The position numbers and the translations under genes were made by a program. The notes under the pieces were generated by a model. That model saw only the letters and a list, made by a program, of their open reading frames with translations, was not told the origin of the DNA and ran no database searches. A stretch of 64,000 nucleotides of DNA. It comes from Planctomycetota bacterium. GTDB taxonomy: Bacteria; Planctomycetota; Planctomycetia; Pirellulales; Lacipirellulaceae. Within the stretch, counting starts at the first letter, position 1, and every line of letters begins with the position of its first letter. Below are positions 3,778 through 64,000 of this stretch, piece by piece. The DNA is taken from NCBI GenBank assembly GCA_013286045.1, contig JABDGM010000002.1, forward strand, positions 1 to 64,000, written 5' to 3'.

Positions 3778-4257
3778 ATGTCGCGTGCGCGTCCCAATCT
3801 GCCCGAACAGTGTTATTATTGGGGCAATGATGTACCAACCTGTTTTTGCCACTGGCGCAATTCGGCGGTCGCGGCGTCAGAGCCAGCCCACCGTGGCCCA
3901 CCGCATTGATCGTCACGGTGGCGGTTGTGGCTTTGCTTTTCGTTGTCGCCGTCGTGTATCGACTGGTTCGCAACCCACCTCGATACCGATTACGGACGTT
4001 GCTTGTGGTCACGACGGTTTTTAGCCATCGTTTTAGGGCTAGTCGGTTACTGCATCCAAAGCGCGCCCCGTTGGAAGGAAGAATTGGCGCTCGCCAGCGC
4101 CGCCCGCGCCCGTGCCTATGCGGAAGACGACAGGCGACAAGCACGCCTGCACTGCGATGCAGCGCTCTCCCCATTCGACGACAAGATCAACGCCCTAGTC
4201 GCCAACTTTGCCGGTTCGCTTTGGCGTCGCGCCGAGCGCACTGAACACTTCGACTAA
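3778..4257 (+). pseudogene. Frameshifted small planctomycete membrane protein
   Basis: Remains of a short single-span membrane protein. An ATG at 3778 opens MSRARPNLPEQCYYWGND. A second frame supplies a hydrophobic helix (TALIVTVAVVALLFVVAVVY) followed by RYRLRTLLVVTT. A third frame then continues AIVLGLVGYC and an Ala/Arg-rich tail to 4257. The RYRLRTLL(V) segment before a second hydrophobic stretch is a common theme in small planctomycete proteins. One extra T in the run near 4017-4021 explains the second frame change. The 3' part lies antisense to the damaged endonuclease, so the true end is unclear. A sequencing error in homopolymers is the alternative to decay. Confidence 0.55.
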
Positions 4258-57495: not shown

Positions 57496-57900
57496 TTACT
57501 CCAAAAAACCTTGCTTCGTTAGCCACTGCGATAAGGCCTCTTCAGCGATCTGCTGTTCGGAAGACATTGCTGCGTGGCGAAGCCGTAGCTCAAGTGAAGC
57601 TCGCTTTAAGGCCTGAGCCGTTCGGTGCTGAAGTCGAATCGTCTTCGGGACCAAAAGCTGGTCGAGGATCTCTTTGGCGTCTGGCTCATTGGCTCGTTCC
57701 CTACGCTTTGAAACCCGCCCTTTTGAATTATTTGACAGCTCTGTTGCTCCCCTTTCTTCAAGGTCGACGATTTGCTCAGCATCGCTCGGTGAATCCTCTT
57801 TCGTAGCTTTTGGCTTTGGCGGCGCCGATTGACCGCCGATGAAAGCAAGCTTCTCGGGGGTCATTTTGATTGCATCTCCTAACGATCTTCTGTCACCCAT
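57496..57900 (-). CDS. Ribbon-helix-helix centromere-binding (ParB/ParG-like) protein
   Basis: A 134-residue protein whose start overlaps the parA stop by 8 bases, so it is the second gene of a partition operon. The N-terminal 75 residues are charged and flexible. The C-terminal 50 form a ribbon-helix-helix: strand LVPKTIRL, helix 1 RTAQALKRASLELRLR and helix 2 SSEQQIAEEALSQWLTK. Small RHH partners of ParA bind repeats near the operon (type Ib segregation) and may also repress it. The flexible N-terminus would stimulate the ParA ATPase. A 35-residue relic of a related gene lies at 46785. Confidence 0.75.
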   Translation of the reverse strand: MGDRRSLGDAIKMTPEKLAFIGGQSAPPKPKATKEDSPSDAEQIVDLEERGATELSNNSKGRVSKRRERANEPDAKEILDQLLVPKTIRLQHRTAQALKRASLELRLRHAAMSSEQQIAEEALSQWLTKQGFLE

Positions 57901-58567
57901 TTGCTAACTTCTGCCTCCTATCGTTTGTCATGTTGTTTACTGTTTCACCCAAGAGTTCTTTGAAAAGTGCATCCATATCTGCCGCAGCTTGCGCCCCTTT
58001 TCGTCCGAAGCGGCTTACGACAGTGCCTTGTTGCGCAACATCCCGGTACGCTTGGAGGTCTCGAATGACACTCGACGCGACCTTAAGTCCGAGTCCCGGT
58101 GCCCCAACTTTTAGCTCCTGACTTATCGTGTCACGAGTCCTCATTTTGTTGAGTACCAGGATTCCATCTGGTCTTCCGCCATTGATCTTTTGAGCATACC
58201 GAAGAACGGCAGTCGCACCCTCAACCGAACGAACATCGAGAATTGAGGGCGAAATCGGGAAAATTGCGAGGTGGGCCAAAATGAGCAAGGTGCGGCTTAG
58301 GTCCTCAAGGCCACCCGGAGCGTCCGCCACGACGAAATCGTGGCTCTGAATCAATTCTTGGGCGGCAGAAAGGCAATTTTCAGGGGTGTCAGCGACCCGA
58401 ACGGTGATTTGAGGTTCTACCTCGGCGATCCATTGCGAACTCGAACGCTGTTTGTCGGTATCGAGTAACGCCGTTGGAAACCCGCAATCGTAGAGCGACA
58501 CGGCGATGTGAACGGCGATAGTGCTTTTGCCGACTCCCCCCTTCGAATTTGCGGTCACGATCAACAT
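57893..58567 (-). CDS. parA: ParA-family partition ATPase
   Basis: A 224-residue Walker-type ATPase: MLIVTANSKGGVGKSTIA with the deviant Walker A lysine, LLDTDKQRSSSQW (Walker A' Asp), DFVVADAPGG (Walker B) and a conserved helix with QAYRDVAQQG. The short length without an N-terminal DNA-binding domain is typical of type Ib plasmid ParA. It is transcribed away from the replication origin, with the RHH gene overlapping its 3' end. It moves plasmid copies apart by nucleoid-bound gradients together with the centromere-binding partner. Confidence 0.9.
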   Translation of the reverse strand: MLIVTANSKGGVGKSTIAVHIAVSLYDCGFPTALLDTDKQRSSSQWIAEVEPQITVRVADTPENCLSAAQELIQSHDFVVADAPGGLEDLSRTLLILAHLAIFPISPSILDVRSVEGATAVLRYAQKINGGRPDGILVLNKMRTRDTISQELKVGAPGLGLKVASSVIRDLQAYRDVAQQGTVVSRFGRKGAQAAADMDALFKELLGETVNNMTNDRRQKLANG

Positions 58568-59146: not shown

Positions 59147-60661
59147 GTGCAACTCTTGTGTAATAACTTTAAAGAACTTGCAACAACAGAGAGCGTGTTG
59201 GTGCATTTTTCTAAAAAAGTAATGAGCGAAGAATTAGCAACAGAACTCCCCCCAGTTAAGCACAGTACGCCACAGCCTTTCAACTTTGACGATGGTCGAG
59301 ATGAACTGAACTTGGCAGAGTTTCCGCTAGCAGCAATTGCTGATCGCGTTCCCGACAATCAAAAAACACTTGTGTTCGAAGATCATATTTTCGACTCTGG
59401 CAAATCGGAAATGATAAAGCGTCGACTGACGATCTCAGCCTCCGACAAATTTGGATTGCCGACCTCCCTTGATGACGAGGTGATCTTAGGGCTGATTCAA
59501 CTCACGAAGCAGTATCGTTTTACTGAGCGTAAAGTGAACTTCAGTCGCTACCAACTGATTCAAGTACTGGGGTGGCGACACGAAGGGCATAGTTATGAGC
59601 GGCTCGAAAAATCACTGAAGCGCTGGTTGGGGGTGACACTCTATTACGACAAGGCGTGGTGGGACAAAGACGAGCAAAGTTGGGTCGACGAAAACTTTCA
59701 CATACTGGAGCAAGTGACTCTCTATGATCAAGAGCGGCGACTGAAGCGATTGCGAAGCAGCAATTCCGAACCACCATTGTCTTCGTTCACTTGGAACGAA
59801 GTCGTGTTTCGCAGCTTCAAGTCTGGGTACCTGAAAGCAATCGATCTCGGCGTCTATCGACAGCTTAAGCACGCGGCTGCTAAGCGCATGTACCGATTTC
59901 TGGACAAACGGTTTTACCATACTCCGCGCTGGGAATTTGATCTCACGGAATTTGCATGTGAGCATATTGGACTCAGTCGTAACTACGATGTTGGTCAACT
60001 CAAAAGACGACTGAAAGCTGCGATTGCCGAACTGGAGTCGGTCGGTTTCTTGGAAGCTCTTTCTCCTGCGCAGCGGTACGTGAGAATTTGTCGCGGTCAG
60101 TGGAAAATTGTTTTTGTTAAAAAAGCAGTTCCACAAATCGAGCAGCCGAGCCGAGAGGCCGCTTCACTCATCAATCAACTCATTGACCGCGGCGTTACGC
60201 CGTCGGTGGCAACTGAACTCGTACGTGACTATCCGCAAGAGTTAATCGCAATGCAAATGGAAGTGCTCGATCGTTTGCGACAAGCGAAGGAGCGAGAACC
60301 GATGCGAAACCCAGCCGGGTACCTGGTCGAGTCGATTCGAAAAGGTTACGTTCCATCCAATAAGTTACGTCCGAAGAAAGTTGCTGCGACGCCCGCTGCG
60401 GAAGCGAAGATCGACACTCCGCCAAAGAAAACTCCAGTCGAACAACAGATAGATGCTTACCTGTCGTCACTCAGCAAAGAGGAAATTGATGCGCTTGAGC
60501 AGACTGCGCTTGAAAGTGCCGAAGCTACGCTCTCGGAAGGCTATCATCGCTCGAAGCGAGCGGGCGGGCCTGCCTTCGCAATGTATCGGCGGATGATTCT
60601 GGAACGGGAGATTTCACGAAGGCTTTCTTCGGAAACCATTCTCAAAACGTGCGCAGCTTAG
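59147..60661 (+). CDS. repA: Replication initiator protein A (RPA/RepA family)
   Basis: Initiator of plasmid replication that binds the upstream iterons. The N-terminal RPA domain is clear: GRDELNLAEFPLAAIADRVPD, then LTISASDKFGLPTSLDDEVILGL in pattern, FSRYQLIQVLGWRHEG (winged-helix recognition part), LKRWLGVTLYYDKAWWD and FTWNEVVFRSFKSGYLKAID. A second winged-helix region follows with YRFLDKRFYHTPRWEFDL, and a helical C-terminal 150 residues. The start is uncertain: GTG 59147 is the first, but ATG 59222 (MSEELATELP) leaves a more usual N-terminus; neither has a strong Shine-Dalgarno. 504 residues from the first start. Confidence 0.88.
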   Translation: MQLLCNNFKELATTESVLVHFSKKVMSEELATELPPVKHSTPQPFNFDDGRDELNLAEFPLAAIADRVPDNQKTLVFEDHIFDSGKSEMIKRRLTISASDKFGLPTSLDDEVILGLIQLTKQYRFTERKVNFSRYQLIQVLGWRHEGHSYERLEKSLKRWLGVTLYYDKAWWDKDEQSWVDENFHILEQVTLYDQERRLKRLRSSNSEPPLSSFTWNEVVFRSFKSGYLKAIDLGVYRQLKHAAAKRMYRFLDKRFYHTPRWEFDLTEFACEHIGLSRNYDVGQLKRRLKAAIAELESVGFLEALSPAQRYVRICRGQWKIVFVKKAVPQIEQPSREAASLINQLIDRGVTPSVATELVRDYPQELIAMQMEVLDRLRQAKEREPMRNPAGYLVESIRKGYVPSNKLRPKKVAATPAAEAKIDTPPKKTPVEQQIDAYLSSLSKEEIDALEQTALESAEATLSEGYHRSKRAGGPAFAMYRRMILEREISRRLSSETILKTCAA

Positions 60662-61485: not shown

Positions 61486-62496
61486 ATGCACACGCAATCG
61501 AAGCCACCACTCGGTTCCTTAGACGTGCCGGGCAACTGGATTTGGGATAGTTCCGTCGTCGAGCACAACGGCGTTCTCTATCGATATGCGTTAAGCGCTA
61601 GTAAGAAATGGTCTCGCGATGAGCGGCACGATCATGCGGAATTGCGATTGGCAACTTTAGGCGCGCGCGATGCTACTTGGCAGGACAAGGGGATCGTGAT
61701 AGAGGCCGAACAAGACGCCGAGTGGCCCAACCTTGTGATCTGGACCAGTAACGCAATCGTTCGACTTACGGAAGATGGAGCTTTCGAATTCGTTTTGGCG
61801 ATAACCGGACGTAATATCGACGATGGATACCTACAAAGAATCGGAATCGCTAAATCAATGAACGGTGTGAAGTTTACGCCACCCAAAATGGTGCTTGCAC
61901 CGGAGGGCCCGAACGTCGCTGAACGGGGCTACGATGTGACCGACCTCAATCCGTCCAAAGAAGTCATCATGGCGTGGCGAGATCCGTATCTGTTTCTTGA
62001 TCCTAACGACGAACGGTGGCATCTCTTCTTTGCTGCGAAACCGCTGAATCCGAATCCGCTCGGACCGGTCGGAACTGTCGGCCATGCCGTAGCCAGTGAC
62101 TCGACGCTCGAAGTTTGGGAACTTTTACAGCCGTTGGACCTGCCGCAACATTATCACCAACTTGAAGTTCCCTCGGTTATCTATAGGGGCGGAGAATACT
62201 TCCTGTTTGTCTCCACACAGAATAATCCGTTGATGAAAACAAACTTCGATAAAGAGGCTGCGTTTCGCGCTTATCGAGCGGACTCGATCACTGGAAAATG
62301 GAAGTCGATTTACGAAGGCTCGGACCTTGTTCACAACCACAAAATCTATGCTCCCACTATCTTTCAACGAGAAGATGGGAGTTTTTGGGCGGTAGCATTT
62401 TACTCCGAAGACACTCCTTGGCACATCATCGGTACGCCGATAGTGCCACTTCAGTGGCACGATAACTCTCCTAGGTTGCAATTCGTGGTCGAATAG
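61486..62496 (+). CDS. Five-bladed beta-propeller glycosidase (GH32/43/68-like)
   Basis: A 336-residue protein without a clear signal peptide. The layout matches GH32/GH43/GH68 clan propellers: GNWIWDSSVVEHNGVLYRYAL at the start (nucleophile-type Asp in WIWD), IMAWRDPYLFLD (the transition-state RDP) and HQLEVPSVIYRGGEYFLF (acid/base Glu). Sequence nearest to the levansucrase/fructosidase-like group in pattern (SVVEHNGVLYRYALSA), but a GH43 glycosidase is possible. Normal single-domain length. It is the only carbohydrate gene on this part of the replicon and stands between repA and the structured RNA region. Confidence 0.75.
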   Translation: MHTQSKPPLGSLDVPGNWIWDSSVVEHNGVLYRYALSASKKWSRDERHDHAELRLATLGARDATWQDKGIVIEAEQDAEWPNLVIWTSNAIVRLTEDGAFEFVLAITGRNIDDGYLQRIGIAKSMNGVKFTPPKMVLAPEGPNVAERGYDVTDLNPSKEVIMAWRDPYLFLDPNDERWHLFFAAKPLNPNPLGPVGTVGHAVASDSTLEVWELLQPLDLPQHYHQLEVPSVIYRGGEYFLFVSTQNNPLMKTNFDKEAAFRAYRADSITGKWKSIYEGSDLVHNHKIYAPTIFQREDGSFWAVAFYSEDTPWHIIGTPIVPLQWHDNSPRLQFVVE

Positions 62497-62716
62497 TTGT
62501 GATTCAACCAGGTCTCAAGCGGCGCCGTTTGCTTAGCGCGAAACGGCCGTGCTATAAGGATGTTTAGAGAGACACAGGATAGGTCTTTTGACTGTCGATG
62601 ATCGTAAAACGCTTTGACAAGTTCCGTCCGTTTGGGAGTGCTCGCCCACGTAGCTTGGCCGCCAGCCACGCGAAAGGGGACGGGGTTTACCGCCCGTCAT
62701 GAGTGCTTGCCACGTA
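62497..62716. other. Non-coding stretch before the structured region
   Basis: No gene. The last 90 bases (from about 62626) change in character to GC-rich, self-complementary sequence that leads into the domain-V-like hairpin at 62717. Confidence 0.4.
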
Positions 62717-62752
62717 GAGCCGGATGCGCCTTACAGGTGCTTGTCCGTGCTC
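62717..62752 (+). ncRNA. Group II intron domain V-like hairpin
   Basis: GAGCCGGA pairs with TCCG-T-GCTC (one bulged T), then a T/TTG internal bulge, then GCGCC pairs with GGTGC around a TTACA loop. This is the architecture of group II intron domain V: AGC triad at the base, 8-bp lower stem, asymmetric bulge, 5-bp upper stem. The usual domain is 34 nt with a GNRA loop; this one is 36 nt with a 5-nt loop. GAAGGAGG follows, as is common before domain VI. The upstream 1 kb is a glycosidase gene, so no complete intron can precede it: a 3' relic or part of another RNA. Confidence 0.45.
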
Positions 62753-63002
62753 GAAGGAGGCTGTTCAGAGTAATCCTGCAAGTCACCGAGCTGCCTTTGT
62801 ATGGCAGATCGAGTAACGCAGAGTAATCCTGAGCTTCTATCCTATAGAGATACTTTTCATTTTTTCTCGCCCGAATGGGGGCGATGCGGAAATAGTCACT
62901 CATAAGTTCTTGAGTGACCCGTCAGTTTTCAAAGTTGGTGATGTTGCGGCAATCGTCGCAGCGTAATCCACACACGGGGTTCGCTTCCTGTTTTCAAGGG
63001 GC
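62753..63002 (+). other. Structured spacer with hairpins and a 13-bp direct repeat
   Basis: Contains CAGAGTAATCCTG twice (62766-62778 and 62819-62831), a small hairpin between them (CTGCC...GGCAG), a hairpin at 62867-62884 (TCGCCC/GGGCGA) and a perfect 8-bp stem at 62895-62918 (GTCACTCA/TGAGTGAC). No reading frame looks coding. Confidence 0.5.
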
Positions 63003-63960
63003 GTTCAACGAGGTCCGGCGTGGGGAACCACGAGCCTAGCGATAGGCCGTGCCGGGGAGTGACATCCTCGGGTACCGAAGTAAGTCTTCGGACGCGAATA
63101 GCTCAACCACGAAAGGCCCGTAAGGGCTTGCCGGTAAGCTTTGAGAGGGTCGATGCCGAGATTTGTCCAAGTGCGGCAATAGCCGAACTGGACTGGGGAC
63201 AAGCAACCGTTTCTCCGTAACCCGATCTTCTGGATTCGTAGGGAGAAATCAAAGCCCGTTGGCCTTATCGGTCAATTGGCTTTGTAAAGTAGGACGGCCT
63301 GACCGCCGCACCTAGAGATGTGTTTGCCACGCAGTGAAAACTGCTCACCCACGGAACTCTCACAGCAAAGAAACTGACTAACGCAGGAACCACTTACGAA
63401 GCCGGTTGGTAACCGGTGCGCGGCCAAGTCGGCCACGTGCTTAAAACTCGTAAGTGGGGGAGTGGGCTGCAAGTAGATAGCTGGCAGCGTGCGAGGCGGA
63501 AGCCTCGCGTGCTGTCGGACGATGGTCTTTGCGAAGGCAAAGACGCGAAGCCGATGCACGAAGCATCGAGCTTGCGCCGGGCAAGGCAGTCCGGACTCGT
63601 TGGCAGTTCTGGGTGGCACCAGAGCGAAGTTTGCCACGACGAAAGCAGCGACTGGCCTATTGGCCAAACGGACGGACAATGCCTGGGGGCTGCCGGGATT
63701 TGTATTCCCGGCAGTCCGCTGCGGCATTTCCTTGGTTGGAAGCAATGTGAGTCAAACGAGTTCTCTTCGGGAGAAGAGAAGTCCTTTGACAGCGAATCGA
63801 GGGTGAACAGTCGACGTGTATTCATTTCACGGAGACGTTCATCCCGAGGTTTTCGGTACGACGGTGGCATGCAATTGAGTGCGGGGCTGCTGTGAATTCA
63901 GCAGCCAGCAGCCGCGCCGCTGCCGCCGTCGATTCCGAAAGGCTTTTGATTGCAAGGTTC
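63003..63960 (+). ncRNA. Putative large structured RNA
   Basis: Nearly 1 kb without a credible gene but dense with stable stems. Examples: 63019-63032 (CGTGG-GGAA-CCACG), 63034-63047 (GCCTA-GCGA-TAGGC), 63052-63071, 63075-63091 (CCGAAG/CTTCGG), 63114-63129 (GTAA loop), a three-way junction closed by a 10-bp stem 63390-63399/63448-63457 with inner hairpin 63402-63416, 63491-63508 (GCGAGGC-GGAA-GCCTCGC), 63525-63544, 63689-63713 (9-bp stem) and 63761-63780 (TTCTCTTC-GGGA-GAAGAGAA). Several loops are GNRA on the plus strand only, which sets the sense strand. Candidates: group II intron D1-D4, an IscB/IsrB-type omega RNA (GTTCAACG near its left end) plus more, or a giant ncRNA. Confidence 0.6.
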
Positions 63961-64000
63961 AGAAGGATTTTCGAGAGGTTCTCGAAAGCCTAGCTGCATT

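Follow-up and report, generated by a model that had tools for sequence, protein, structure and literature searches.

The 3' end of the 64,000-nt stretch of planctomycete DNA analysed here (the window) most probably encodes a circularly permuted (CP) group II ribozyme on the plus strand, with its partner gene acpG directly downstream; the assignment comes from sequence comparison, and from it we infer catalysis and function. Both the CP group II RNA class and AcpG are already known, and the RNA in the window is a member of that known class. Because it forms one coherent CP group II RNA, it does not constitute a new class. The preliminary description of this DNA had proposed either pieces of group II introns or a giant ncRNA of a new kind. 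Its group II origin stood, while the scattered parts and the new class did not.

A densely folded, gene-free region at the end of the window

We compared the folding energies of 200-nt tiles with those of dinucleotide shuffles. Over positions 62620-63919 the plus strand gave a mean z of -3.71, with 11 of 12 tiles below -2, and the minus strand, tiled in the same way, gave a mean z of -3.01. By comparison, 40 tiles placed elsewhere in the window had a mean z of 0.05, and none of them fell below -2. The survey of open reading frames (ORFs) detected no outstanding frame from about position 62,620 to the end of the window; ORFs of at least 60 aa are present in the RNA region, yet conservation sits in the RNA. 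The dense RNA-like structure without genes that had been described from the letters alone was therefore borne out. Its coordinates, given as 62640-64000, need little correction: the 5' end of the RNA lies near 62623 and its 3' part extends to 63906 or beyond, and the gene-free DNA extends about 120 nt beyond the window, up to the start codon of acpG (contig C2, 97,802 bp). C2 belongs to a fragmentary genome, and its nearest named homologues come from Pirellulales. The minus strand folds well too, and a plus-strand RNA, as originally proposed, is upheld because the group II motifs and the covariance model fix the strand.

Domain architecture of the permuted RNA

The RNA is arranged in the order D5, D6, a short linker, the 5' splice site, and then D1 and the remaining domains (Table 1). 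The D5 triad is conserved as A in 55, G in 61 and C in 60 of 61 sequences, its bulge is T followed by T or C in all 63, and its two helices carry double-sided changes at 6 of 8 and 4 of 5 pairs. In every one of the 63 RNAs the distance from the D6 branch adenosine to the 3' splice site is seven positions, the adenosine included. The linker between the splice sites varies from 12 to 189 nt in the 63 homologues (median 26) and measures 33 nt in the window copy. The domain at the D1 position is supported by the covarying column pairs 270-272/719-721 and by many others within it. The apical loop of D5 (window 62728-62739) is UUACA, which also occurs in Lacipirellula (L043); most relatives have a GNRA loop there. 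The nearly invariant motif GAGTAATCC flanks the D6 internal loop on both sides (window 62768-62775 and 62822-62828).

Table 1 Features of the CP group II RNA locus in window coordinates
Feature	Position	Strand	Evidence
ParA-type ATPase	57893-58567	-	PF01656 and PF09140
repA, replication initiator protein A	59147-60661	+	PF10134 (RPA), E 3.8e-11
Long-range helix, 13-bp perfect inverted repeat	62623-62635 with 63664-63676	+	Inverted repeat and homologue comparison
Structured stretch before D5, positioned like the P1/P2 stems of CP group II RNAs (tentative)	62637-62708	+	Consensus structure
Domain 5	62717-62752	+	AGC triad 62718-62720; two-nucleotide T-Y bulge 62741-62742; column counts
Domain 6	62755-62843	+	Branch-point adenosine 62839, A in 63/63; helices 3-5 of the D5-D6 pair count
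3' splice-site motif AT	62844-62845	+	A 63/63, T 63/63
Linker between splice sites, predicted 33-nt RNA circle	62846-62878	+	Circle predicted from PMC8637638
5' splice-site motif GGGCGA	62879-62884	+	G63 G63 G60 C63 G63 A63 of 63
Large domain at the D1 position, following the 5' splice site	62885-63385	+	Closing pairs 62885-62887/63383-63385
Additional helices with covariation	63390-63457 and 63467-63648	+	Consensus structure, covariation test
Loop of pseudoknot	63232-63234 with 63897-63899	+	E 2e-5 to 3e-3; 100% canonical in 63
3' hairpin, loop takes part in pseudoknot	63885-63906	+	Read from sequence
acpG, 228 aa	64122-64808 (window-equivalent, just outside the window)	+	ORF, profile match to Thermus AcpG

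Two long-range interactions tie the RNA together. An equivalent of the long-range helix, differing in sequence between RNAs, was found in 41 of the 63 homologues, better than in all 20 shuffles; in the homologues it joins a segment about 85 nt upstream of D5 to a segment 775-1125 nt downstream. The loop-loop pseudoknot accounts for three of the four covarying pairs that lie outside the RNAalifold structure. Against the class pseudoknots of CP group II RNAs, namely P2-D2, D3-D1 and P1-3' end (PMC8637638), the RNAs here show a single pseudoknot with strong covariation, besides the long-range helix at the 5' side, with the domain names unmatched. In many loci a strong hairpin also stands at most 140 nt before acpG (in L002 at about 4010-4122, where the L002 coordinate plus 59999 gives the position in window numbering), and several of these hairpins have a GTGCC..AA-like loop and are followed by a T-run; the hairpin could be D4, an attenuator or a terminator.

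Homologues and covariation

Of 98 related genomes, 24 contained the region by nucleotide search, and in four the match extended over about 1.55 kb at 76-85% identity. When the 2 kb preceding each gene were searched with iterated profiles, the RNA was recovered upstream of 71 of 74 acpG homologues. In L071 and L081, two of the three loci lacking an RNA within 2 kb, the D5-D6 model matched 5.8 kb upstream of acpG. In these two loci, between locus positions of about 220 and 6001, it looks as if DNA had been inserted between D5-D6 and the gene.

Covariation was assessed on an alignment of 63 RNA sequences with a test of our own, modelled on R-scape, which combines a G-test with average-product correction and builds its nulls by re-placing substitutions on the tree. 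At a cut-off of E<0.05, this phylogeny-aware test returned 67 covarying column pairs, 63 of them within the RNAalifold structure and all 67 at least 89% canonical. An independent pair count for D5-D6 found double-sided changes in 22 of the 28 pairs; the covariation score was 0.683, vs 0.188 for shuffled alignments and 0.05-0.11 when the pairing was slid. The preliminary description had called for this test and had named missing covariation as grounds for refutation; the pairs found across the 63 homologues speak for its folded RNA.

These data also bear on whether the region is a decayed remnant, or a set of scattered pieces, of canonical group II introns that has lost its function. Group II motifs in the RNA and ordinary group II reverse transcriptases (RTs) in related genomes would fit such an origin, but the catalytic positions are invariant, the helices covary across 63 divergent RNAs, the permuted order is identical in all of them and acpG is maintained. 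We therefore regard a functionless remnant as very improbable.

Assignment to the circularly permuted group II class

CP group II ribozymes were described by Roth et al. 2021, with a 5' splice-site motif GGGCG and a 3' motif NU (PMC8637638). The RNA here shares with them the D5-D6-linker-D1 order, the GGGCG 5' splice site, the branch adenosine of D6, a short linker, the lack of an internal ORF, the AcpG partner and the association with plasmids. We built a covariance model, R1, solely from the new sequences; it spans D5 to the 5' splice site. Among published CP RNAs, R1 detected that of pPNAP05 at E 1.9e-8 and that of pTT8, which is divergent from TTHC007, at a modest E 0.0017. It also gave weak matches to two further Thermus plasmids and strong ones to three copies on cyanobacterial plasmids. 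A whole-RNA nucleotide profile gave no match to pTT8, and a plasmid nucleotide search with the window RNA gave no match. The pTT8 results weigh somewhat against the overall reading, as do the UUACA loop of D5 in the window copy and the lack of covarying IBS-EBS pairs. In 187 kb of viral DNA preselected by the splice-site pattern, R1 found no CP RNA among 21 splice-motif matches.

The RNA here differs from the published members in several respects. It is about 1.3 kb long from the 5' helix to the 3' hairpin, whereas the published RNAs are about 0.9 kb; its hosts are planctomycetes and cyanobacteria rather than Thermus, Firmicutes and Proteobacteria; and acpG lies nearly always downstream on the same strand, whereas it takes any orientation in the published loci. 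Canonical bacterial group II introns with an RT/maturase share the catalytic RNA signature, and their RT is the best match of the AcpG models. In contrast to their D1-to-D6 order, D5 and D6 occupy the 5' part here, the ORF comes after the RNA instead of lying within D4, and AcpG lacks the YADD aspartates.

The Rfam search that had been suggested as a check came back empty: at the gathering level and at E up to 5, the window RNA matched no family, including canonical group II introns, GOLLD, ROOL, OLE and HEARO. This result, together with the length and ornate structure of the RNA, would favour a new giant ncRNA class unrelated to group II introns. GOLLD, ROOL and OLE are likewise large, ornate and non-coding, but D5, D6 and the splice-site signatures mark the RNA here off from them. 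The published pTT8 CP RNA likewise goes unreported by Rfam, which lacks a model for the CP class; the lack of an Rfam match follows from this and does not speak for a new class. Moreover, D5, D6 and the splice-site motifs stand in CP order, the published CP RNAs are cross-detected and an AcpG partner is present. An unrelated class is thus largely refuted, and the likelihood left to it is slight.

The partner protein AcpG

The gene that follows the RNA encodes a protein of 228 aa. TTHC007 of the Thermus plasmid pTT8 has been named AcpG and described as having no known homology (PMC8637638). The planctomycete family aligned with a profile of five Thermus AcpG sequences by hhalign at E 3.7e-7 over 169 collinear columns; against one Thermus AcpG the value was not significant (E 0.073). 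Both proteins are linked to a CP RNA. They differ in sequence (about 20% identity) and length (228 vs 259 aa), and the Thermus gene is divergent from its RNA. Two of the protein alignments exclude L120, which has a stop codon in its sequence. For the 228-aa protein, Pfam, NCBIfam and PHROGs returned nothing significant, and a sequence search of solved structures gave no match.

Predicted structures point to a common fold. AlphaFold models of two divergent AcpG members reached pLDDT 94.4 and 96.3, and the group II intron RT 8h2h_D was the best structural match of both: for one model, 200 residues matched with Z 9.9 at 4.7 A; for the other, Z was 10.1 across 189 residues at 4.0 A. All 50 structural matches listed for each model were RT- or RdRp-fold proteins, Prp8 among them (Z 7-8). 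Since models that have no relatives often reach a best Z of 7-8, the Z of about 10 for AcpG is good, not decisive, and the Foldseek E-values were modest. When AcpG was compared by sequence profile with local group II RTs, the RTs were inseparable from unrelated controls (hhalign E about 0.3). A predicted strand-turn-strand at residues 71-84 of AcpG (QYLR...FVLLAT) resembles by eye the group II RT hairpin RYADDFVIL. No aspartate pair is conserved at the turn of this predicted hairpin, residues 76-79, and the YADD catalytic turn is lost. By these models, AcpG is probably a non-catalytic RT-fold protein with palm and thumb.

A tentative, possible extension is that AcpG would be a catalytically dead, miniaturised group II RT serving as a dedicated scaffold of the permuted ribozyme, beside plasmid replication and partition genes and parallel to the Prp8-snRNA core. 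The RT-like domain of Prp8 in the spliceosome likewise has an RT fold without polymerase activity in an RNP. Prp8, in contrast, is far larger and works with snRNAs, and descent of AcpG from a shared line is unsupported.

Genomic setting and distribution

Among 98 relatives, acpG lay downstream of the RNA on the same strand for 39 of 47 strong RNA matches, mostly 1.2-1.7 kb from D5; 8 RNAs and 9 AcpG proteins had no partner, some of them near contig ends. The Calothrix plasmid locus L125 holds two CP RNAs near each other (632-772 and 2783-2914), with acpG after the second only. Homologues of the 228-aa protein occur in 36 of the 98 near relatives and in 101 stretches of a named genome collection, mostly from Planctomycetota with scattered bins labelled as other phyla, and also on plasmids of Planctomycetes K2D, Leptolyngbya boryana and Calothrix. 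Phylum-wide they occur in 8 of 392 genomes, which fits a passenger of plasmids or integrative elements. No AcpG homologue was found in the phage and viral contig collections searched.

The plasmid carriage proposed at the outset is upheld as a plasmid-type context by the repA and parA genes nearby. The common gene order is parA(-) repA(+) RNA(+) acpG(+). In the loci with at least 5 kb upstream, a RepA-type initiator was present in 22 of 46 and ParA also in 22 of 46; in 27 loci repA was the immediate upstream neighbour, on the same strand. In the window, a levansucrase/invertase-like gene (GH68, E 1.7e-8; 61486-62496) lies between repA and the RNA, a place where many relatives are without any insert. 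Near the element, a small uncharacterised protein of about 110 aa is found repeatedly (L002 4997-5341, minus strand, and 23 loci).

As a first guess, made because the repA/parA neighbourhood recurs, the RNA may serve to maintain the plasmid or to control its genes. In the stronger form of this idea, the main task of the RNA would be to control replication or copy number for the adjacent repA, with splicing secondary. The frequent repA-RNA order argues for it, as does the pPNAP05 copy, which lies near the origin (PMC8637638), but about half of the loci have no repA nearby. The pTT8 CP RNA has in addition been reported to be dispensable, in that nearly all of it can be deleted with replication kept, although a chromosomal copy could complement the loss (cited in PMC8637638). 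We consider a primary control function unlikely, if worth keeping in view.

Alternatively, the ribozyme with AcpG might use reverse splicing against other RNAs or DNAs and so serve the mobile element as a weapon or a defence, a possibility raised by the discoverers of the class (PMC8637638). The patchy distribution, rare phylum-wide and common among near relatives, would agree with this. Across the 63 homologues, however, covariation revealed no IBS-EBS or guide-target pairing in the linker; the lack of AcpG homologues in the viral collections also counts against targeting, though it says little about targets. We judge this explanation doubtful.

Discussion

If the CP group II assignment is correct, the published biochemistry of the class (PMC8637638) suggests how the window RNA may react. 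Adenosine 62839 would attack at 62878/62879, the 5' splice site, releasing a 3' end that would then attack the 3' splice site (62845/62846). A circular RNA of 33 nt and a branched, T-shaped RNA are the expected products. AcpG, with its predicted palm-and-thumb fold and without catalytic aspartates, may act in the manner of a maturase, holding the large RNA in its active fold. Published CP RNAs are active in vitro without protein, and one of them needs high Mg2+ once its pseudoknot is removed; in vivo processing of a CP RNA was not seen in the one species tested (PMC8637638). Together these observations make a protein helper plausible, although the unseen processing also weighs against the overall reading.

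The main text of PMC8637638 does not contain the large planctomycete branch, the cyanobacterial plasmid copies or the longer RNA, nor the near-constant RNA-acpG order, the recurrent repA/parA neighbours or the candidate RT-type fold of AcpG; earlier reports of any of these are possible. CP group II ribozymes have a known reaction without a known role, and an RT-like AcpG hints at the job of the protein. Since the branch is large and has cultured hosts (Lacipirellula, Bythopirellula, Leptolyngbya and Calothrix), since RNA and acpG are mostly adjacent, and since a candidate fold for AcpG is at hand, the role of the RNA and the function of AcpG are directly testable. The candidate fold would also bear on how splicing machines gained non-catalytic RT-type scaffolds such as Prp8.
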